Shown piece after piece: positions 28,217 through 39,931 of a DNA stretch of 64,000 bases. The translations under genes were made by a program, and so were the position numbers. The notes under the pieces are model-generated. The model was not told the origin of the DNA. It saw only the letters and a list, made by a program, of their open reading frames with translations, and searched no databases. Positions within the stretch are counted from its first letter, which is position 1. The number at the start of each line of letters is the position of its first letter. The DNA is from Desulfobacter vibrioformis DSM 8776 (GTDB lineage Bacteria; Desulfobacterota; Desulfobacteria; Desulfobacterales; Desulfobacteraceae): positions 1 through 64,000 of the forward strand of contig NZ_JQKJ01000007.1 in NCBI RefSeq assembly GCF_000745975.1. The letters are read 5' to 3'.

Positions 28217-31189
28217 ATGAAGAAAAATACTGCTGCCGCTGTAACCCAGACAGCTGATAATTATGCTGCTGATAGTCTGACACCCCTGCACCCTCTGGAA
28301 GATGATTCACCGACCAAGGAACTGGACCGGATCATTGTCCGGGGTGCCAAGGAACACAATCTTAAAAATATTGATGTAGAGATCCCCAAGAAAAAACTGG
28401 TGGTGGTGACGGGGGTGTCCGGGTCGGGCAAGTCAAGCCTGGCCTTTGATACCATTTTTGCCGAAGGCCAGCGCCGGTATGTGGAGTCCTTGTCCTCCTA
28501 TGCCCGGCAGTTCATCGGGCAGATGGAAAAACCGCGCTACGATACCATCCGGGGGCTTTCTCCCACCATTGCCATTGAACAGAAGTCGGCGTCCAAAAAT
28601 CCCAGATCCACCGTGGGCACCATCACCGAAATTTACGACTACCTGCGGGTGCTCTTTGCCCGGGTGGGGACCCAGTACTGCTGTAAATGCGGGAAAAAGG
28701 TGGGCCGGGGCCATGCCCAGGCCATGGTCTCCCAGATTATGGATCTGCCTGACGGTTCCAAGATCCTGATTCTGGCGCCCATTGTGGAAAACCGCAAGGG
28801 TGAACACCGGGAGCGACTTGACGATCTCAAGCGCGATGGCTATGCCAGGGTCCGGGTGGACGGGGTGGTCCAGGACCTTGAAAATGTCCAGACCCTGGCC
28901 CGCAACAAAAAGCACCACATTGAGGTGGTGGTGGACCGGCTGGTGGTAAAATCCGATGGTGGGTTTGAAAAACGGCTCACCGATTCCGTGGAAGCGGCCC
29001 TGAAACTGGGTGCAGGCCAGCTCATTGTCCACATGGTGGGCCGCGAAGACCTGAAAATGAGCGAGGCCCGCTCCTGTTGCGGGATCGCCTATCCCGAACT
29101 CATTCCCCAGATTTTTTCCTTTAACTCGCCGCTGGGCATGTGCCCGGACTGCAACGGCATTGGCACCCTTTTGGCCATTGATCCGGATAAGGTGGTGCCG
29201 GATACTAATCTATCCATCCGTGAGGGTGCAGTGGTCCCCTGGAAAAATTATTTTATCAAGAACCCGCGGTTCAACAATGAAAATTCCTGGGGCAAGGGCC
29301 AGCTTCTGGCCATGGAGGAACAATGGGAAATTAATTTTGATCTGCCCTGGAAAAAACTGCCCAAAAAACACCGGGATCTGCTGCTTTACGGCTCCGGCGA
29401 TAAACAGATGACCGTAAACTGGAACTCCTCAAAGATCCAGGGCAAATTTTCCCGCACCCACGAAGGCCTGATCCACACCCTGATGCGCCGGTACAGGAAC
29501 ACCCAGTCCGAACACCAGAAAAAGTACTATACTGATTTCATGACCGCGGCCATCTGCCCGTCCTGTAAGGGACGACGGTTGCGGGAGGAGATTCTGCATG
29601 TCAGAATCAATGAAAAATCCATTATAGATGTCACTGAGATGACAGTGAAAGAGGCATATAATTTTATCTCTTCGCTGGCGTTGACCGGCAGCAAAAAGCT
29701 CATTGCCGCCGAACTGCTCAAGGAGATCCGGGATCGTCTGGGTTTCCTGGTGAACGTGGGCCTGGATTATCTCTCCCTGGACCGGTCCGGTCCCACGCTG
29801 TCCGGCGGGGAATCCCAGCGCATCCGCCTGGCTTCCCAGGTGGGGTCTGAACTGACAGGGGTGCTTTATATCCTGGACGAACCCTCCATCGGCCTTCACC
29901 AAAGAGACAACATCAAGTTGCTGGCCACACTGAAGCATCTGCGGGACATCGGCAACACCCTGCTCATTGTGGAGCATGACCAGGAAACCATGGAGGCCTC
30001 GGACTGGATTGTAGACATGGGGCCGGGTGCCGGCCACCTGGGCGGGGAGATCGTGGCCCAGGGCACACCTGTACAGATTCGGAAAAACCCGGTCTCCCTC
30101 ACCGGTCAATTTTTAAGCGGACGTGAGACCATTGCCGTGCCAAACCTCCGCCGGACACCCGGTGCCATGGGGAATAAATGGCTCACCATCCACGGGGCAT
30201 GTGAAAACAACCTGGCCGACATCACAGCCAAAATTCCCGTGGGGCTTTTAACGGCCGTCACCGGCGTGTCCGGGGCCGGTAAATCCACCCTGATCAACCA
30301 GATTCTCTACCCGGCCCTGGCGGTAAAACTGCATGGTTCCCAGATGAGTGTGGGAAAACATAAAAAGATCACCGGGCTGTCCCACATCAACAAAGTCATC
30401 AACATTGACCAGAAACCCATCGGCCGGACCCCGCGCAGCAATCCCGCCACATATACCAAGCTGTTTGACCCCATCCGGGATCTGTTTGCCATGCTGCCCG
30501 AATCCCAGGCCAGGGGATATAAAAAAGGACGGTACTCTTTTAATGTCAAGGGTGGCCGGTGTGAGGCGTGCCAGGGGGACGGATACATCAAGGTGGAAAT
30601 GCATTTTCTGGCTGATGTGTTTGTACCCTGTGACGTATGCCACGGCAAACGGTTCAACAAGTCCACCCTGGAGATCAAGTATAAGGATCACTCCATTGCC
30701 GATGTGCTGGATCTCTCCGTAGTACAGGCCAGGGACCTGTTTGACGCCCATCCCAGGATCACCAGGATTCTGGATACCCTGGTGGATGTGGGGCTCTCTT
30801 ATATCAAACTGGGCCAGGCCGCCACGACCCTGTCCGGCGGCGAAGCCCAGCGGATCAAACTGGCCCGGGAGCTTGCCAGAAAGGACACCGGCGACACCCT
30901 TTATATTCTGGACGAACCCACCACCGGGCTGCACTTCCAGGACATCCGCATGCTGCTGCAGGTGCTCCAGCGTCTTACCCATGCCGGCAACACCGTGGTG
31001 ATCATTGAGCATAATCTGGATGTGATTAAAACCGCAGACTGGATTATGGATATTGGTCCCGAGGGCGGCAGCGGCGGAGGCCGGATTGTGGCAGCCGGTC
31101 CGCCCGAAGATGTGGCTAAAGATCCCGGCAGCTACACCGGTCAATATTTAATCTCCATCCTTAACCCCGGCGGCTATAATCCGGCATGA
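28217..31189 (+). CDS. uvrA: Excinuclease ABC subunit A
   Basis: The damage-recognition ATPase of nucleotide excision repair. It has 990 residues, slightly longer than E. coli UvrA because of an N-terminal extension of about 35 residues (rich in Ala and Thr). Walker A motifs are GVSGSGKSS (near 71) and GVSGAGKST (near 684); signature motifs are [10 protein letters not shown] and [10 protein letters not shown]. The second zinc module is [16 protein letters not shown] with CDVCHG; the first is short (CCKCGKK). Both ATPase halves are intact. A strong hairpin with a T-rich tail follows. I did not find a recognisable LexA box upstream. Confidence 0.97.
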
Positions 31190-31196
31190 TAAATTA

Positions 31197-31226
31197 CCGC
31201 CCTTGGGGCGGGTTGTTAAATTTTAG
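31197..31226 (+). terminator. Intrinsic terminator of uvrA
   Basis: CCGCCC-TTG-GGGCGG at 31197-31211 is followed by GTTGTTAAATTTT. It lies 8 bases after the uvrA stop codon. Confidence 0.8.
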
Positions 31227-31371
31227 GTGTTAGGAAATGGAAATTGCTGCACTTTCAAGTTACGATTTTTGCACCTTTTGGGGGTAAAAAATGAAAATTT
31301 TGTAACTCATTTTTTATTCACAGAACGCGTCTATTTTGAAATATTTAAAAAAAAACAATGAGTTATATTAT

Positions 31372-31387
31372 TGGCATGCCCTTTGCT
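31372..31387 (+). promoter_or_regulatory. Sigma-54 (-24/-12) promoter of the hairpin-rich element
   Basis: TGGCATGCCCTTTGCT matches the TGGCACG-N4-TTGCW consensus at all but one defining base. The GG (31373-31374) and GC (31385-31386) are exactly 10 bases apart. Transcription would start near 31398. The same 16 bases occur at 31965-31980. An activator site was not recognised. Confidence 0.75.
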
Positions 31388-31397
31388 GTCTGTTATA

Positions 31398-31637
31398 TAC
31401 AAAGGACAGGTATGACAAAGGTCACCCAATCCCTACTTCATATCTTCACCTGTCCTTGTCTCTCTATCATCCTCACCCTGTGCCGGAAAAAAATATTCCG
31501 CACAGGGCTTCACCATTAAATGGTGACTCAAAAAAGGAAAAGTATTGTGATCGGGCAGGAATTCATATCCTGTCCGTCAAACCGATTCAAATATCAAATG
31601 TCCTGGGAATTCTTGATTCCCAGGACATTTGATATTT
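31398..31637 (+). ncRNA. Candidate sigma-54-dependent structured small RNA
   Basis: About 240 bases between the predicted start of the sigma-54 promoter and a long terminal stem. Pairing elements in order: AAGGACAGGT with ACCTGTCCTT (31402-31411 and 31448-31457); CCCTGTG/CGGAA with TTCCG/CACAGGG (31476-31507); TCACCAT with ATGGTGA (31510-31526); CGGGCAGGA with TCCTGTCCG (31552-31576, one G-T pair); and a perfect 22-bp stem with a 5-base loop (31589-31637). No convincing ORF. Several GGA triplets occur, so a Csr/Rsm-binding role is conceivable, but none is clearly in a loop. The transcript itself is inferred. Confidence 0.45.
31589..31637 (+). terminator. 22-bp perfect hairpin
   Basis: Arms at 31589-31610 and 31616-31637 are perfect inverted copies around the loop TCTTG. 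The downstream sequence is GTTGTTC rather than a T-run, so termination is plausible but the hairpin could instead stabilise an RNA 3' end. Confidence 0.55.
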
Positions 31638-31824
31638 GTTGTTCAGGTTCGGTTTAAAGGGTGTTGAAATCGATAATGCCTGTTTAATGCAATTTAATAA
31701 ATTTCCGGTAAGTTAGGAGTTGAAAAAGCCTTTGTTTAGTTGTAATTTCCAAACGACTCAACCCCCAAAAAAACATCACCACAAGAGGTTTTATGTATAG
31801 AAGGAATATCAGGTGGTATCGTTA

Positions 31825-31844
31825 CAAATCAAATCAAATCAAAT
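31825..31844. repeat. (CAAAT)4 tandem repeat
   Basis: Four uninterrupted CAAAT units lie about 120 bases upstream of the glycosyltransferase sigma-54 promoter, where an enhancer-binding protein would sit. Slippage could alter spacing; no direct evidence. Confidence 0.6.
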
Positions 31845-31964
31845 CAATTCAATGAAAACAAACAAATTGAAATTTTCGTTCCCGGAGATGAAATTTTGGT
31901 AACCAGGTTGTATCTGAACTTTCATATCGAAATAAATATCTTTGTAATTCAGTGTATTACATTA

Positions 31965-31980
31965 TGGCATGCCCTTTGCT
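31965..31980 (+). promoter_or_regulatory. Sigma-54 (-24/-12) promoter of the glycosyltransferase gene
   Basis: TGGCATGCCCTTTGCT, identical to 31372-31387, with GG and GC 10 bases apart. The start site would be near 31991, leaving a leader of about 30 bases with an AAGGAG ribosome site before the ATG at 32021. Confidence 0.78.
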
Positions 31981-32020
31981 TTGATGCTGATAGATTTTAT
32001 AGAATAAGGAGATGTAAATT

Positions 32021-33403
32021 ATGGTAACAACCAGACAGATCATCGAAAATAAAAAAAAATTTATCACCCTGGCCTGTATCCTGGCAGTTGTGGTAACGGC
32101 CTGCCGGTATGGTGCCGGCGGTTTATCTGCCACCCAATTTCTTAGAGGAATGGCCTGGTGGGGAGATGCATTGATTGTCTCATTTTCCGTTTTTTCCTGC
32201 CTGGCCCTGGCAGAGCTGGTATGGAGAATCATCCTGGTACTGAAATACAGGCCCATTCCGGGTGTGTCCGATGATCAGCTGCCGACATGTACGGTCGTAG
32301 TACCGGCTTACAATGAAGGCCGCCAAGTATTTGACACCCTTAAAAGTCTTGCTGACAGCGACTATCCCAGGAAAAAAATTCAACTGATTGCCGTGGATGA
32401 CGGCAGTGCGGATGACACCTGGGAATGGATTAAACAGGCCAAAAGAACACTTGCAGTACCTATCCTGACCATACGCCAGCCCCGGAACCAGGGCAAGCGC
32501 CAGGCCCTTTATGACGGGTTTAAGAGAAGCACCGGAAAAGTACTGGTGACCGTGGACAGTGACTCCATGGTGGCGCCTGACACCCTTAGAAATCTGGTGA
32601 CACCTTTGGCTATAAATCCCGGCATCGGCGCTGTTGCAGGCAATGTCCGCGTACTCAACCAGGCCCAGGGTATTATCCCCAGGATGGTGGACATTGTTTT
32701 TGTGTTCAGCTTTGATTTCATGCGTGCCAGCCAGAGCATGGTCCGCACAGTGACCTGCACGCCCGGGGCCCTGTCTGCATACCGCAAATCCGCTGCCATT
32801 GGTGTGCTTGATAAATGGCTGAACCAGACTTTCCTTGGCCGGCCAGCCAATATTGGCGAAGACCGCGCATTGACAAACATGATTCTTCGCCAGGGATATG
32901 AAGTCGTGTTTCAGCAGAACGCCAAGGTCTTTACCGAGGTACCGGTGGGCTATGCCCAGCTTTGCAAAATGTATTTGAGATGGGCCAGGAGCAATGTGCG
33001 TGAGACCATTGCCATGACAACCTTTATCTTTACGCGCTTTCGCCGGGGATCAATGCTTGGGGCGCGGATCAACCTGGTCTCCGACGTGATCAAACTTACC
33101 GTGGCCCAGCTTTTTTTCTTGATTTCCTGGGGACTGCTTCTGTGGCACCCGGCCATATTCGGGAGCAAGGCCATTATCGGCATTGTGATGGGTTCCAGCC
33201 TGTCCGCCACAATCTACGCCTTGAAATCTGGCAGGTTCTCCTCAATACTGGCATTTATCTATGGGTTTTTCTTTTTTGCCACCCTGACCTGGATCAAACC
33301 CTATGCCCTGATCACGCCTCACCACTCCCGCTGGCTGACACGGGCCTGCCCAAAGGTCAAGCCGGATCTTCACCACCAATTGAGCGCCCGGCAGCTGACC
33401 TGA
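32021..33403 (+). CDS. Family 2 membrane glycosyltransferase (hyaluronan/chitin/cellulose synthase-like)
   Basis: A processive-type GT2 enzyme of 460 residues that would make or extend a polysaccharide at the inner membrane. TM segments lie near 14-30 and 48-75, the catalytic domain spans about 88-325, and two or three TM segments follow. Key sites: D126/D127 in AVDDGS, D179xD181 in TVDSDS, the catalytic-base motif GED at 279-281, and RW at 320-321 in the QxxRW-like block (KMYLRWARS). It has its own sigma-54 promoter and a strong downstream hairpin, so it is probably a single-gene transcript. The sugar is unknown; no export or epimerase genes adjoin it. Confidence 0.88.
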   Translation: MVTTRQIIENKKKFITLACILAVVVTACRYGAGGLSATQFLRGMAWWGDALIVSFSVFSCLALAELVWRIILVLKYRPIPGVSDDQLPTCTVVVPAYNEGRQVFDTLKSLADSDYPRKKIQLIAVDDGSADDTWEWIKQAKRTLAVPILTIRQPRNQGKRQALYDGFKRSTGKVLVTVDSDSMVAPDTLRNLVTPLAINPGIGAVAGNVRVLNQAQGIIPRMVDIVFVFSFDFMRASQSMVRTVTCTPGALSAYRKSAAIGVLDKWLNQTFLGRPANIGEDRALTNMILRQGYEVVFQQNAKVFTEVPVGYAQLCKMYLRWARSNVRETIAMTTFIFTRFRRGSMLGARINLVSDVIKLTVAQLFFLISWGLLLWHPAIFGSKAIIGIVMGSSLSATIYALKSGRFSSILAFIYGFFFFATLTWIKPYALITPHHSRWLTRACPKVKPDLHHQLSARQLT

Positions 33404-33626: not shown

Positions 33627-34022
33627 ATGAATAGAATTCTCATTGTTGATGATGAAGAAATCGGAAAAACCTTAATGGAGGAGATTTTCAGTAAATATGG
33701 TTCGTCTATTTCGGTCTCTTCCGGTACCGATGCACTGAATGTCTATCAAAAAGGCATTGAAAAAGGAAAACCCTTTAATTTGGTTTTGCTGGACATCTCG
33801 CTTAAAGACATCAGCGGGGTGGATGTCTTAAAAAAAATCAAAAAGATTGATGCCGGGCATACAGGTCAAAAATCAATTGTCATTATGGTTACCGCCCATA
33901 GTGAACGAGACATCGTCATCGGTTGCATCAAATCGGGATGCAGGGCCTATTTCATAAAACCGCTGAAGCAGGACGCTGTAGATAAGAAGATGGCCGAACT
34001 GGGAATTTGCCCCGTTAAATAA
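33627..34022 (+). CDS. Stand-alone CheY-like response regulator
   Basis: A 131-residue receiver domain. The phospho-acceptor is Asp56 in VLLDISLKD, with acidic residues D8/D9 in VDDEE, Thr at position 89 (VTAHS) and Lys111 in FIKPL. It has no output domain. It belongs to the same subfamily as the receiver of the REC-HDOD protein at 54684-56027: both have C-x-K-x-GC-x-x-Y-x-x-KP near the end. The HDOD gene follows after 63 bases, suggesting that receiver and HDOD act together as separate chains. Confidence 0.92.
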   Translation: MNRILIVDDEEIGKTLMEEIFSKYGSSISVSSGTDALNVYQKGIEKGKPFNLVLLDISLKDISGVDVLKKIKKIDAGHTGQKSIVIMVTAHSERDIVIGCIKSGCRAYFIKPLKQDAVDKKMAELGICPVK

Positions 34023-34085
34023 ACACCCCGGACAAAATGGCCTCCACCAGTATTATTCTTCAGGGTCATTGATCAGGAATATCAA

Positions 34086-34976
34086 GTGGAATCATCCTCT
34101 TACCACAATACGGCAAAACGATACCTGGATAAATTTACAGGCCTGAAAACGGTTCCCCCTGTTGCCGCCCGTCTGATCAAAATGATTAACGAAGACACCG
34201 CCTCTCTTAATGATTTTGAAACGGTCATCCGGGTTGACCCCACCCTGGTATTACGCATTTTAAAGCTGATCAACTCTGCCTACTTTTCCCTGAGAACAAA
34301 AATCAATAATATATCTGAAGCAGTGGCCTACATCGGGATGGACAACCTGAGAAATATGATTTTTCTCGACGCAGTGAAAAATCTTTTTTGTAAGGACTCA
34401 AATACCATGGAATTTTCCAGAAAAAAACTGTGGGTCCATTGTGCCGTGACAAGCATCTGTTGCCAGATGGTTGCAGAACGCATTTTTGCCCGGAAAGGAG
34501 AGGATGGCTTCTTATGCGGTATTCTTCACGATATCGGCCTGATCGTTGAGGATCAGGTGGCCCAGGAAAAGTTCAAAGGGTTTTGTCGCACATTTGACCC
34601 GGTAAGCCAAAATCTGACGGATCATGAACGGAAAATCATGGGAACGGATCATACCTTCATCGGTTATCTGCTGGCCCAGCAATGGGGGCTGAAACCGGAT
34701 CTTTGCCAGGGAATAAAATATCATCACGATGCCCTGAAAGCGGTGAAACCGGACAGCCATGCCGGTATCCTGCAAATCGCGGAGTATCTGGCCTTCAGAT
34801 CCGGGTATGCAGCATACCCGGAAACACACACAAGGATACAGTCCCCGCCACTTCTTTCCCATATCAAGGAAAATATTATGGGCTATCGTGCCATAATGGA
34901 TGATCTGCCCCAGGAAATTGAGATGATCAGGGAAATTTATTCCTTTGGGGATGACAATGCAGATGAACTTGTTTGA
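34086..34976 (+). CDS. HDOD-domain signalling protein
   Basis: A 296-residue cytosolic protein with an HDOD domain (about 15-215), a catalytically silent relative of HD phosphohydrolases. It includes the [15 protein letters not shown] segment near residue 142 and a C-terminal helical part. The start is a GTG at 34086 with TCAGGA at a good distance. It overlaps the hybrid kinase gene by 20 bases, so the two are coupled. HDOD proteins often accompany receiver and chemotaxis genes, and the partner response regulator is upstream. Confidence 0.9.
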
Positions 34977-37497
34977 TGATATTTTTCAAGAATCGGACAA
35001 CGAGCTTAACGCTGGCTTTTTTGCTCTGCTGAACAAATATTTTCCAGCGGACAGATTTGCAATTTTGCTGGACAAAGGCGGATCCCTGGGCCCGTTAGCA
35101 GACCGTTTTATGGATAACGGCCTTGCGAACCAGTTGCGGCAGGCCGCTGACAGCGGACGGATTTTAACCGGACCCAACGGGCCTTTGGTGTCGCTGTCCC
35201 TAAGAGAAATGAATTCCGTTATTGTATGTGAAATCCCCCGGGACGCTGATCCGGCCACTGCGGTTGCCCTGATCCGGGATATTATCCGCCTGTGCATGGC
35301 GCTTCATAAAAAAGAACGCCTCCTGGCAGAAGAAAAGGCACTGCTCCTAGCCCACAAAGAGCAGCGTGACCGAAAAATCAAGGTTCTAGGGAAAAAATAC
35401 CAGGATATTCTGACCCGGAACCAGACCCAGAGCGCCGAGTACTCCAGACTGCTTCACTCCGAAATCCAGAACCGGACATCTGAACTGGAGCATTCCAACA
35501 AAGCGCTGGCCCGGGCCAAGGAACGGGCAGAAGCGGCGAATATTGCCAAGGACCAATTCCTGGCAAATATGAGTCATGAAATACGAACCCCCATGAACGG
35601 GGTAATCGGCATGGTTGAAATTCTTCTTGGGACACCCCTTACCCAGGAACAGCGCCACTTTGCCATGCTCATGAAAACCTCGTCCGAAGCGCTTCTCAAT
35701 ATCATTAACGATATCCTGGATTATTCAAAGATCGAAGCAGGAAAACTGGAGATTGAGGAGATTGATTTCAATCTAAGACAGGTAATGGAAGAACTGTCAG
35801 ATATTATTTCCATCTCTGTATTTGAAAAAAAGCTCTTTTTTGCCACAATATTTGATGCAGATGTGCCGGTGATGTTAAAGGGCGATCCGGTGCGCCTACG
35901 CCAGATTATAATGAATTTTTGCGGAAATGCCGTTAAATTTACCCGGCAGGGAGGCGTTGTGATTCAGGTCAGCCTGGAATTAAAGGCCTTGTCCGAAGTG
36001 CGGCTGAAATTTTCAGTGACTGACACGGGCATTGGTATCCCAAAGGACCGGATACACGGATTATTCCGCTCTTTTTCCCAGATGGATTCCAGCATGACCC
36101 GGCAATACGGCGGCACCGGACTCGGACTGGCCATTTCCAAGCAGCTGACCGAACTGATGGGCGGCCAGATCGGGGTCTTCTCACAGGAGAATAAGGGGTC
36201 CACCTTCTGGTGCAAACTGGGATTTAAACAGCAGCCTGACGCCGAACCGAGGCCCGATACGGCTTTGGGGCGGGATATTTTGGTATTGATCGCTGATGCC
36301 AACCCGGCTGCCAGGCAGGCTCTGATCGAATATATCAAACCTTTGGAATGCGCTTTCCAGGAAGCTTGCGATATCACCGAGGCCTGCAGCAAAATCTTTT
36401 CCGCCCGGCAGTCCGGCACGCCATTCAGCTATGTTTTTTTTGACCAGGATCTTCCCGGAATGCCGTCAACGGATCTGGTTGAGGCCGCAGCGCAGACTTG
36501 CGACATTTCAGATACGACGTTTGTGCGTCTGGCGTTTCTCGGGCGTCAAAAACCGCACCACAGCGCGTCTGCCCACACCCGTATCATGAGCCTGAACAAA
36601 CCCGTAAAGTATGCGGATTTTATTGCCTGCATGTCATTGGCCGATCCCTTAATTGGCATTGAAACCCAGGATCAAGCTCCGGAGCAGGCCCATCTTGATG
36701 CTGTCTGGGTAACTTGCCCGTGCCGGGTACTCCTTTCAGAAGACGATGAAATGAACCGCATTGTCGCTGAAAACCTTTTGAAAAGAATGAATCTGACAGA
36801 TATCCTGGTGGCTGAAAACGGTCAGGAAGCCTTGGATTTATTTAAAGCCGGTCAATTTGATCTGATATTTATGGATGGTCAGATGCCGGTGATGAGCGGC
36901 CTGGATGCCACTGTAAAAATTCGGGAGTATGAAAAAGAGCACAACCTTGTGCCGGTACCCATCATCGCCCTGACCGCCCACGCAATGAAGCAAGACCGGG
37001 CGTACTTTTTGGCCAGCGGGATGGATGATTACATCACCAAGCCCCTGACGTCCAGGGCCTTGGCAGATGTGATTAAGCGAATTCTGCCGGAAGACTGCTG
37101 TAAAAGCAACGCTTACCGGGAGGACGCATCGGTTCAAAAAGACAAAGAAATTGTGGACATGGCCGAACTCAGGGAGATCATGAACGCAAATAAATCCCTG
37201 CTGGATAAATGCCTCCGGACATTTAAAAAACAACATGGTCCTGTTCTGACCCGGATTATGGACAGTATTTCTGCCGGCGATGGCCCGGGACTGCAAAAAA
37301 GCGCCCACCAGTTAAAGGGTATGTTTAAGTATCTGGCCGCCAAATCTGCCGCAGAAACCGCGTTCCGGCTGGAGCGGATGGGTGCGGACGGAAACATTAA
37401 AGATACCCGCCCTTTGATTTTGCAGTTACAGGAAGCATGCAAAAATATCGTGGACCGTCTTGGGAACGTCTCTGACCGGGATGGCTTCAGTTTTTAA
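34957..37497 (+). CDS. Hybrid sensor histidine kinase with two receivers and an Hpt domain
   Basis: An 846-residue soluble kinase. The first 120 residues form a domain I do not recognise, then comes a coiled coil (about 120-200), HisKA with phospho-accepting His207 in [11 protein letters not shown], HATPase (N and G boxes [22 protein letters not shown]), a degenerate receiver (about 440-560), a full receiver with Asp640 in FMDGQMP, and Hpt with His784 in AHQLKG. There is no membrane segment. A TTG at 34945 opens the frame; the ATG at 34957 lies 6 bases after GGGG and is chosen. It sits in an operon with the response regulator and HDOD genes. Confidence 0.93.
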
Positions 37498-37516: not shown

Positions 37517-39931
37517 TCACAGCCCCAGCTTGTCTTTTAAAAATGGGGCATACGCCTTATCTGTTTTCATAATGTGATTTCTCAGCCAGTCCGTAAGAAA
37601 TTTCATCAAATCCATGGAAAGTGCGGCCCGTCCTTGCTCAAACTCCTTGCTAAACGTCAGAACTTTGGCCACAAGGTCTTTATGTATTTTTTTATGATTC
37701 AGGGCATCTGGATATCCATGGGTATCAAACAGCTTTTCTTCATACTCGAAATGATACACCGTATAATTGCCCAAACGCGTCAAGATGGATCCCGCCTCCT
37801 GGGTACCCATTTTCATCCTCATGGCCCGGTGAAGTTCATTAACCATGGAAACCAGCTCCCTGTGCTGCTTGTCAACCTCAGGAATGCCAATAGCCAGACG
37901 TCTTCCCCAGGGCATGAGGTCATTAATGGCCTCGGGTATTATATCCGGTCCGTTATCCACACCGGCCTCTTCAATCGATACTTTAAAAACACCGATCATA
38001 TTTCTTAAATTATTAGAAAGGCTGGAAAGTTCCTGGGCGCTTTGCTTCATTCGGACGCTGCGCTGGGTCATCTCTTCGGACACTTCGTTGACCTCTGAAA
38101 TATCACCGGAAATTTCCGTTGATACCATGGAACTTTTAACGACATTTTCATTGACCTCCCGGATTCCGGACGATGCCTGTTCAATGTTTTCAGCCACTTG
38201 GGATGCATAGCCGGACTGTTCTTCTATGGCCTCGGCAATTTCCGAAACAATCCTTGAGACGTCTGAAATAACCTGGGTGATCTGTTCAACCTCCTGAACA
38301 GTGGCTTTTGAAGAATTTTGAATCTCCTTAATCCTTTGTTTTATGTCCATGGTTGCGTCAGCTGTTTGGGCGGCCAGACCTTTTATTTCTCCTGCCACCA
38401 CGGCAAAGCCTTTACCTGCTTCTCCGGCTCTTGCCGCTTCAATTGTGGCATTCAGGGCTAAAAGGTTTGTCTGTTCGGCAATATCAGTGATCACTTCCGT
38501 AACCCGTGTGATATCCCTGGCAGAGGTGCCTAATCTGGCAACTTTGCTGGTTGCCGCATTCACCGTTTCTGCGGCAGTTCGGGTTATTATCCTGGCTTTT
38601 TCACAGTTTTCAGCCACTTGATTTAAGTTTTGTTTCATCTGTCCTGCAGAATCCGTCACCGATGCCAGATTGCCGGCAGCCTGTTCACTGGCAGCGGCCA
38701 CGGAGTTCATGCTCTGACTCATTTCTCCGGCGGCAGAGGCCACAGCTTCAGACTTGCCCGTAAGGCTTTCTGAATCTTCCAACATGAATTCTGCAACTGA
38801 AAGCAGTTCTTCGGCAGATGCAGAGACCGTCTCCGAATCAATGCCGATATGCACGATTATTTTGTTTAACCTGGCTATAAAAGTATTGACCCACTTTGCC
38901 AGCTCTCCTATTTCATCCCGGCTTTGGATGGCAATACGCTGGGTTAAGTCTCCGTCACCCTCGGAGATATCCTTAAGCGCTGCTACGGTTGCATTGATCG
39001 GCCGGACAATTCTTGAGGCCATTATCCAGACAACGGCTATGGCAAAGAGGATGATCAAAACAGATATGATAAGATTAAAACGGGTAAGGGCGGTGATGGG
39101 TGCGAACATTTCTTCATCATCAGACTGGACAACTGCAATGATATTGATTTTACTTGAATGGGCAAAGGCCTTATGAACCGCTTTTTCATCCACGGTTGCC
39201 GCCAGGCATCCATTATTCCCGTTTATGATCTGCCGCCCGTGTTCTGTCTGGGCCAGGTTCAATCTGTTGATCTTGCTTTTATCCGGATGTGCAACGACCA
39301 TCCCGTTGTTGTTTATCAGATATGCATAGCCTTTTTCTCCGATTTTAACAGGGTCGGTAAATTTTGCTGAAAAGACCTGCAGATCCACCACTGCAAACAA
39401 AATTCCATGAACAGCACTTCCAATTTTTATGGGGCTTGAAATAACAAAAATTGGATTCCCCGAGACTTTGCTCTGTAATATGTCTGAAATTTGGGTCTGG
39501 CCTGCCATGGCTTGTTTAAAATAATATCTGTCCTTAACATTGATTTTTCCTATGATTGAAGCGGGAGACCCCGAGATAATTTCACCGGTTGAATCAGCAA
39601 TATTGAGTGCTTCGTAGAACCCATATCTTTGGCGCCATTCTGTAAACAGCTGGTTCGTGTTTTCCCGGGCCGCCTCTCCTTGTGTCCCCGGTTTAAATGT
39701 ATCCCGGCAAATTTCCATAGTCCGCCATGTCTCAATATCCTTGGTCCGGTCCTCCACCCATGCATCCATTGTTACAACAGTTGATTGGCTGGTTTTGACA
39801 AGCTGGCTCATCATATTGTTTTGAAGCGCGCTTTTGGCTTTCGAACTGGATATAAGCGCCAAACCACCTAAACCGGCGATAAGCAGAATAAATACAGGCA
39901 GAATAATTTTATGCTTAAAATTAAGTTTCAT
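37517..39931 (-). CDS. Methyl-accepting chemotaxis protein with C-terminal hemerythrin domain (DcrH-like)
   Basis: An 804-residue chemoreceptor. TM1 lies near 8-28, a Cache-type periplasmic domain to about 280, TM2 near 288-308, then HAMP, the signalling hairpin ([26 protein letters not shown]) and, from residue 673, a complete hemerythrin domain. All seven di-iron ligands are present with spacing like that of marine-worm hemerythrin: His690, His727, Glu731, His746, His750, His786 and Asp791. DcrH of Desulfovibrio is a precedent for O2 sensing by such a domain. The ATG has an AGGGAGG ribosome site. It converges on the hybrid kinase gene with a 19-base gap. Confidence 0.95.

Follow-up and report, generated by a model that had tools for sequence, protein, structure and literature searches.

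A candidate sigma-54-dependent small RNA gene beside a polysaccharide synthase gene in Desulfobacter

Introduction

What is encoded between uvrA and the glycosyltransferase gene GT2 of Desulfobacter vibrioformis DSM 8776? We address this question in a stretch of 64 kb, called the window below, from a genome of 4.47 Mb that is 95% complete. The two genes are separated by an interval of 831 bases, which holds two identical promoter 16-mers; between the two lie five hairpins, the fifth of which is followed by a T-rich tail. A preliminary description had proposed the first promoter and the hairpins as a candidate regulatory RNA; the present analysis adds the second promoter, a putative activator motif and a synthase gene under a matching promoter. 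The features of the interval and its borders are the following.

28217-31189, plus strand: uvrA, conserved upstream neighbour
31292-31306, plus strand: putative enhancer (activator) site of the RNA promoter, TGAAAATTTTGTAAC
31372-31387, plus strand: distal sigma-54 (-24/-12) promoter, TGGCATGCCCTTTGCT, with a predicted start at about 31398
31398-31646, plus strand: predicted small RNA (about 250 nt), running from the start site to the T-rich tail (fold, model R1)
about 31402-31457, plus strand: hairpin 1 of the predicted fold, with AAAGGACA and the start codon (ATG) of a small ORF in its 5' arm
31412-31519, plus strand: small ORF of 35 aa, judged non-coding, with ribosome site AAAGGACAGGT before its ATG
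31458-31475, plus strand: C/U-rich linker, nearly free of G, mostly single-stranded in predicted ensembles, a candidate pairing segment
31476-31507, plus strand: hairpin 2, the best kept element; all 10 copies carry a GGA near its top
31510-31526, plus strand: hairpin 3
31552-31576, plus strand: hairpin 4
31588-31638, plus strand: hairpin 5, a perfect 23-bp stem with a 5-base loop, followed by the T-rich tail
31868-31882, plus strand: first putative activator site for the GT2 promoter, TGAAATTTTCGTTCC
31889-31903, plus strand: second putative activator site for the GT2 promoter, TGAAATTTTGGTAAC, 21 bases downstream of the first
31965-31980, plus strand: proximal sigma-54 promoter, the same 16 bases as the distal one, preceding GT2
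32021-33403, plus strand: GT2, glycosyltransferase family 2, hyaluronan synthase/NodC/PgaC-like (Pfam PF00535, PF13641)

The synthase gene and its two promoters

The product of GT2 resembles the membrane polysaccharide synthases of the hyaluronan/NodC/PgaC group, with scores below the cut-off of each named family (169.8 bits for the NodC model and 123 bits for the PgaC model). Its best solved relatives are hyaluronan synthases, and it is 83-86% identical to named Desulfobacter records. The preliminary description had expected sigma-54 control to tie the RNA to nitrogen, motility or surface-sugar regulation; the last of these is supported in that the RNA adjoins a gene of surface-sugar type. 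Passages of a survey link sigma-54 to exterior polymers and mention GlmY/GlmZ (PMC3162934).

The near-consensus -24/-12 promoter reported earlier is present at 31372-31387, with GG at 31373-74 and GC at 31385-86, 10 bases apart. Taken by itself, the motif would be weak evidence: with at most one mismatch it occurs 12 times in the window against 13.8 expected, two of these matches being exact. The promoter call gains weight because a second identical 16-mer precedes GT2 and because both sites are conserved across loci. A proximal site was found in all 11 GT2 loci with upstream sequence and two sites in 10 of them, the distal one 397-649 bases and the proximal one 56-186 bases before the GT2 start; the remaining locus (L029) carries the proximal site only. 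A further sigma-54-like element (TGGCGTAGCCTTTGCT or similar) was seen by eye in L029-L031, 3' of the proximal promoter and about 57-58 bases before the GT2 start.

A putative activator motif shared by both promoters

The motif TGAAAWTTTNGTWMC lies upstream of both promoters at near-fixed spacing. Allowing at most one mismatch, all 10 copies have it upstream of the distal promoter, with its start 78-83 bases ahead of the GG, which provides the RNA gene with a putative upstream enhancer site at near-fixed spacing. Before the proximal GG it was found by pattern in 8 of 11 loci, starting at 77-79 bases, and these eight sites have an additional, sometimes weaker, copy 21 bases further up; diverged copies were recognized by eye in the other three. 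The combination of motif and promoter occurs at 11 places in 13 genomes, every one of them at an RNA/GT2 locus, and is found nowhere in 5 of the 13; since the motif was derived from these same loci, the scan demonstrates uniqueness rather than independent discovery. A reversed-pattern control returned no site in the 13 genomes.

Predicted structure of the RNA

The region 31385-31660 folds at -106 kcal/mol compared with -60.1 (sd 4.5) in 200 shuffles, none of which was as good (z -10.2). The reverse strand folds nearly equally well (z -9.8) and folding therefore does not give the strand; the proposed plus orientation rests on the promoter and the T-rich tail. A comparison of G-U with A-C cells did not discriminate the strands: the plus-strand structure has 40 G-U against 7 A-C cells, the reverse fold shows the opposite bias (76 against 8), and the 40 pairs common to both strands yield 7 against 5.

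Of the five stem-loops announced in the preliminary description all were recovered, at 31402-31638, the last stem measuring 23 bp instead of the 22 bp stated. Long perfect stems had been called rare by chance; in the window hairpin 5 is the sole perfect stem of at least 14 bp with a loop of 3-12 bases. Because the T-rich tail follows it on the plus strand, hairpin 5 reads as an intrinsic terminator. The same combination of hairpin and tail occurs in seven full copies of the RNA (hairpin 5 alone: -21 to -36 kcal/mol) and is absent from three short ones.

Hairpin 1, whose inner GUAUG/CAUAC pairs are invariant in the seven full copies, would enclose both the ribosome site and the start codon of the small ORF. 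Two 5' arms, AAAGGACA and GACAAAGG, are alternative pairing partners for its 3' arm, and in G004 (L033) the first of these is lost and the second used; the alternative arms suggest a possible switch. The linker at 31458-31475 is mostly unpaired in predicted ensembles, and only partly so in L035 and L036.

The RNA might simply carry a small leader peptide or protein (MTKGTTTP...) whose translation is controlled by hairpin 1. A good ribosome site and an ATG are indeed found in most copies, and the frame stays open for 29-59 codons in 6 of 10; against this, a stop follows after 8 codons in three copies, the start was not found in one, lengths and C-termini vary, and the synonymous fraction (0.24) lies between those of the other two frames (0.15 and 0.27). 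A protein-coding ORF was rejected on the early stops and the missing synonymous-change signal, and we hold the leader peptide to be very improbable. The preliminary description had seen no credible ORF; it did not mention this 35-aa frame with its good ribosome site, yet its judgement agrees with the lack of a coding signal.

Conservation and covariation

All five hairpins are found in 7 of the 10 copies, whereas hairpins 4-5 are missing in L031, L030 and L037, the last of which also has a broken hairpin 3. In the alignment of the seven full copies 96.1% of cells pair, and seven pairs (11 cells) have changed on both sides compared with 2.6 (2.8) in shuffles, none of 500 being as high; slid versions of the alignment give 0-2 such pairs. 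The preliminary description had named covariation as a check on the pairing, and compensatory changes do exceed shuffles, but they fall mostly in hairpin 5 (five pairs), with one each in hairpins 2 and 4 and none in hairpins 1 and 3. When the three short copies are added, one of the 28 pairs in hairpins 1-3 is compensated, and the covariation term is slightly unfavourable. Since five of the seven compensated pairs belong to the putative terminator, the support for hairpins 1-4 as a regulatory fold is thinner. Fold z-scores range from -3.0 to -10.8 in the seven full copies (60 shuffles each) and are -5.0 in L031, -4.4 in L037 and -1.7 in L030, whose hairpins 1-3 fold little better than shuffles.

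Distribution among genomes

A DNA search over 59 genomes, that of the window included, gave some match at E <= 0.1 in 24, ten of which, all Desulfobacter, matched at E < 1e-4 in the same locus position. The five best relatives are 75-78% identical across most of the query and its hairpins, and partial matches of 70-77% identity were obtained in G004, G018, G017 and G013. The covariance model R1, which covers hairpins 1-3 only, matched 10 of 86 genomes of the family, all Desulfobacter and all with GT2; it was built from the same ten copies, so these matches follow by construction. None of the 67 family genomes outside the 19 Desulfobacter matched R1 under strict filters that could lose weak relatives. 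Among viral contigs 12 pattern matches were found, none of which fits R1, and phage records contained no match to the RNA region.

GT2 itself is present in 23 of the 59 genomes at E <= 1e-40, including 12 of the 19 Desulfobacter. The RNA accompanies it in 10 of these 12 and occurs in none of the seven Desulfobacter genomes that lack GT2, one of which (G001) is only 56% complete. The two other GT2 carriers are G012 (74% complete), which retains hairpin 5 alone, and G006, in which the contig begins 50 bases upstream of GT2. As synteny is fixed, uvrA preceding GT2 in the window and in all 10 relatives for which upstream sequence is available, the co-occurrence partly reflects simple linkage. Because three copies are devoid of hairpins 4-5 and G012 keeps only hairpin 5, the RNA would be dispensable or altered in these genomes.

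No match to R1 was obtained at 18 GT2 loci outside Desulfobacter (L042 and L058 look like one locus). In Desulfamplus, a sigma-54 site lies 283-348 bases upstream of the matched part of GT2, with a second pattern match at -961 in one case, and a similar TGAAATTTTCGTAAT was seen by eye further upstream. Since these loci combine a sigma-54 site with no R1 match, sigma-54 control of GT2 looks older than the RNA.

Could the interval be a relic, or the outcome of chance, in which a duplicated GT2 promoter region is left with a functionless terminator and hairpins? Confinement to one genus and the existence of short copies and one remnant would fit such a history. It is at odds, however, with the 75-78% identity of the five best relatives over most of the hairpins, with the compensatory changes and with the upkeep of promoter and activator site, and we consider it highly unlikely.

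Comparison with known small RNAs

Qrr of Vibrio and CrcZ of Pseudomonas are small RNAs that depend on sigma-54, are activated by an enhancer-binding protein and have a link to Hfq. The Desulfobacter RNA, which would be of the same kind by its promoter, differs from them in matching no Rfam family: with Rfam 15 the window gave no match at the gathering threshold. The 22 sub-threshold matches in 31200-32030 include 12 to microRNA models, 11 of these on hairpin 5, and the best reaches 33 bits for a threshold of 74. Open-licence PMC papers yielded nothing on such an RNA in Desulfobacter. Judged against these two sources, this candidate sigma-54-dependent small RNA seems to form a new family in sulfate reducers, in agreement with the earlier statement that no described RNA of this layout was known to its author.

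A close parallel is offered by GlmY/GlmZ of enterobacteria, for which the cited texts describe, in the parts relevant here, a sigma-54 promoter, upstream activator sites, a small RNA and a tie to amino-sugar and envelope supply (PMC3844500, PMC3162934, PMC6075780). In contrast, the Desulfobacter RNA lacks an Rfam match, belongs to a genus without detected Hfq and adjoins a polymer synthase gene. With McaS and the RNAs of CsrB/RsmZ type it shares several hairpins, some GGA sites and a functional link to polysaccharide; unlike CsrB/RsmZ, it has 2-6 GGA per copy, compared with the 22 given for E. coli CsrB in a section of a review (PMC7652899), and its recurrent GGA sites lie in stems or in a linker, outside hairpin loops. 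The gcsH motif is likewise a rare structured RNA limited to Desulfobacteraceae, and is set apart by its description, in the portion that concerns it, as lying upstream of gcsH (PMC11109978).

Proposed function

The promoter pair, the motif pair, the predicted terminator, the compensatory changes and the co-occurrence with GT2 are features of the sequence; from them we infer an activator protein, a transcript and a mode of action. On balance we think it probable, by a moderate degree, that 31372-31646 is a free-standing sigma-54-dependent small RNA gene whose product is made together with GT2 and acts in trans through Hfq-free pairing of its linker. An enhancer-binding protein recognizing TGAAAWTTTNGTWMC would drive sigma-54 RNA polymerase at the distal promoter, giving a transcript of about 250 nt that starts near 31398 and ends at hairpin 5, and the same activator and sigma factor would transcribe GT2 from the promoter at 31965. 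The shared sites and synteny suggest that RNA and synthase would be produced together when surface polymer is needed. The C-rich linker exposed between hairpins 1 and 2, which hairpins 1-3 would protect and present, may then bind other mRNAs at their purine-rich translation starts, with no need for Hfq, and lower their translation while polymer is made. With its single putative activator motif and its two promoters, for one RNA and for one polysaccharide synthase, the arrangement lends itself to experimental testing.

Alternatively, the RNA could be a 5' leader of GT2, an attenuator or switch, with GT2 transcribed from the distal promoter and read-through governed by the terminator. It is located directly upstream on the same strand, the distal promoter could read into GT2 in the three copies without terminator, and the 3' arm of hairpin 1 has two possible partners. 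GT2 nevertheless is served by a conserved promoter and activator sites of its own, located 3' of the terminator; moreover, the stability of hairpin 5 in the seven full copies would make it hard to undo, and in the window it lies about 380 nt before the GT2 start. We regard a leader function as distinctly unlikely.

How would a free-standing RNA act? Its features comprise the C-rich linker, a hairpin over a ribosome site and an A-rich stretch with GGA. Hfq was searched with PF17209 at E <= 0.001 and matched in none of 19 Desulfobacter genomes, 14 of which have a completeness of 90% or more and a contamination of 5% or less, in a search whose control matched in 5 of 14 known genomes; this counts against an Hfq-dependent pairing RNA. 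Because Hfq went undetected in all 19 and csrA is present beside a presumed FliW-like ORF, our first guess would be Hfq-independent pairing through the C-rich linker, and the second capture of CsrA. The failure to detect Hfq in the 19 genomes also makes Desulfobacter well suited to the question of how a sigma-54 small RNA works in the absence of this chaperone.

Translation starts complementary to the linker number 102 in six genomes (15-20 per genome, compared with 0-3 in the control), an excess that is the expectation for good ribosome sites and includes some instances of the RNA gene's own other strand. No recurring target emerged among the 30 of these 102 sites that were examined, five of which open an ORF of at least 100 aa. 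Some site sequences do recur between genomes (e.g. G005, G017 and G018), and the two examined open only 19 codons. Pairing with the translation start of GT2 itself was rejected as a conserved feature: it ranks 25 of 37 in the window copy against a background of 37 window gene starts picked from ORFs, some of them unchecked, and in relatives it ranks 3 and 1 of 37 (L032 and L033) and 12-22 in the other seven.

As a CsrA sponge, the RNA would bind CsrA at GGA sites and relieve repression of polymer and biofilm genes. csrA is present in the genome of the window, where it overlaps another ORF and lies beside further ones (L072:978-1656); we take the overlapping ORF to be FliW-like, and its surroundings look flagellar. 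Three GGA sites recur: AAAGGA close to the 5' end, a GGA near the tip of hairpin 2, shared by all 10 copies, and AAAAGGAAAAG, present in 6 of 7 full copies. The window copy has 6 GGA compared with 2.3 in base-shuffles. A precedent exists in E. coli, where CsrB and McaS are reported to relieve CsrA repression of pgaA. Overexpression of CsrB, CsrC, McaS and GadY is reported to raise biofilm through CsrA and pgaA (PMC7652899). The GGA excess, however, reaches p <= 0.02 in only 3 of 10 copies, and of the three recurrent sites two fall in predicted stems instead of loops. The FliW-like ORF overlapping csrA also argues against a sponge, given that in sections of the same review fliW is reported to show an anti-correlation with the genes of BarA-UvrY, the driver of Csr sRNAs (PMC7652899). 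We therefore consider a sponge unlikely. A fuller scheme, in which a new RNA family without recognizable Hfq is made with GT2 by a private enhancer and sigma-54, captures CsrA alongside FliW and retunes the cell for polymer production, is a speculation to which we give little credence; the joint action of FliW and sRNAs on CsrA in any species is called undetermined in a part of that 2020 review (PMC7652899).

Flanking genes and a repeat element

The genes downstream of GT2 could be compared in five larger regions: they are common to G009 and G003, and in G005, G017 and G004 each set differs and lies on the other strand. In the window, GT2 is followed at 33627-37497 by genes for a response regulator, an HDOD protein and a hybrid histidine kinase, which had no match in flanks of up to 1.5 kb at 11 other Desulfobacter GT2 loci, and at 37517-39931 by a chemotaxis receptor with a C-terminal hemerythrin domain. 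On the other side of GT2, an element of about 85 bp with inverted ends replaces hairpins 4-5 in G018 (L031:3101-3206). It has 60 matches in G018, 49 in G012, 64 in G017 and one in the genome of the window, counts in which a palindromic copy may figure twice, and in G012 it adjoins the RNA remnant.
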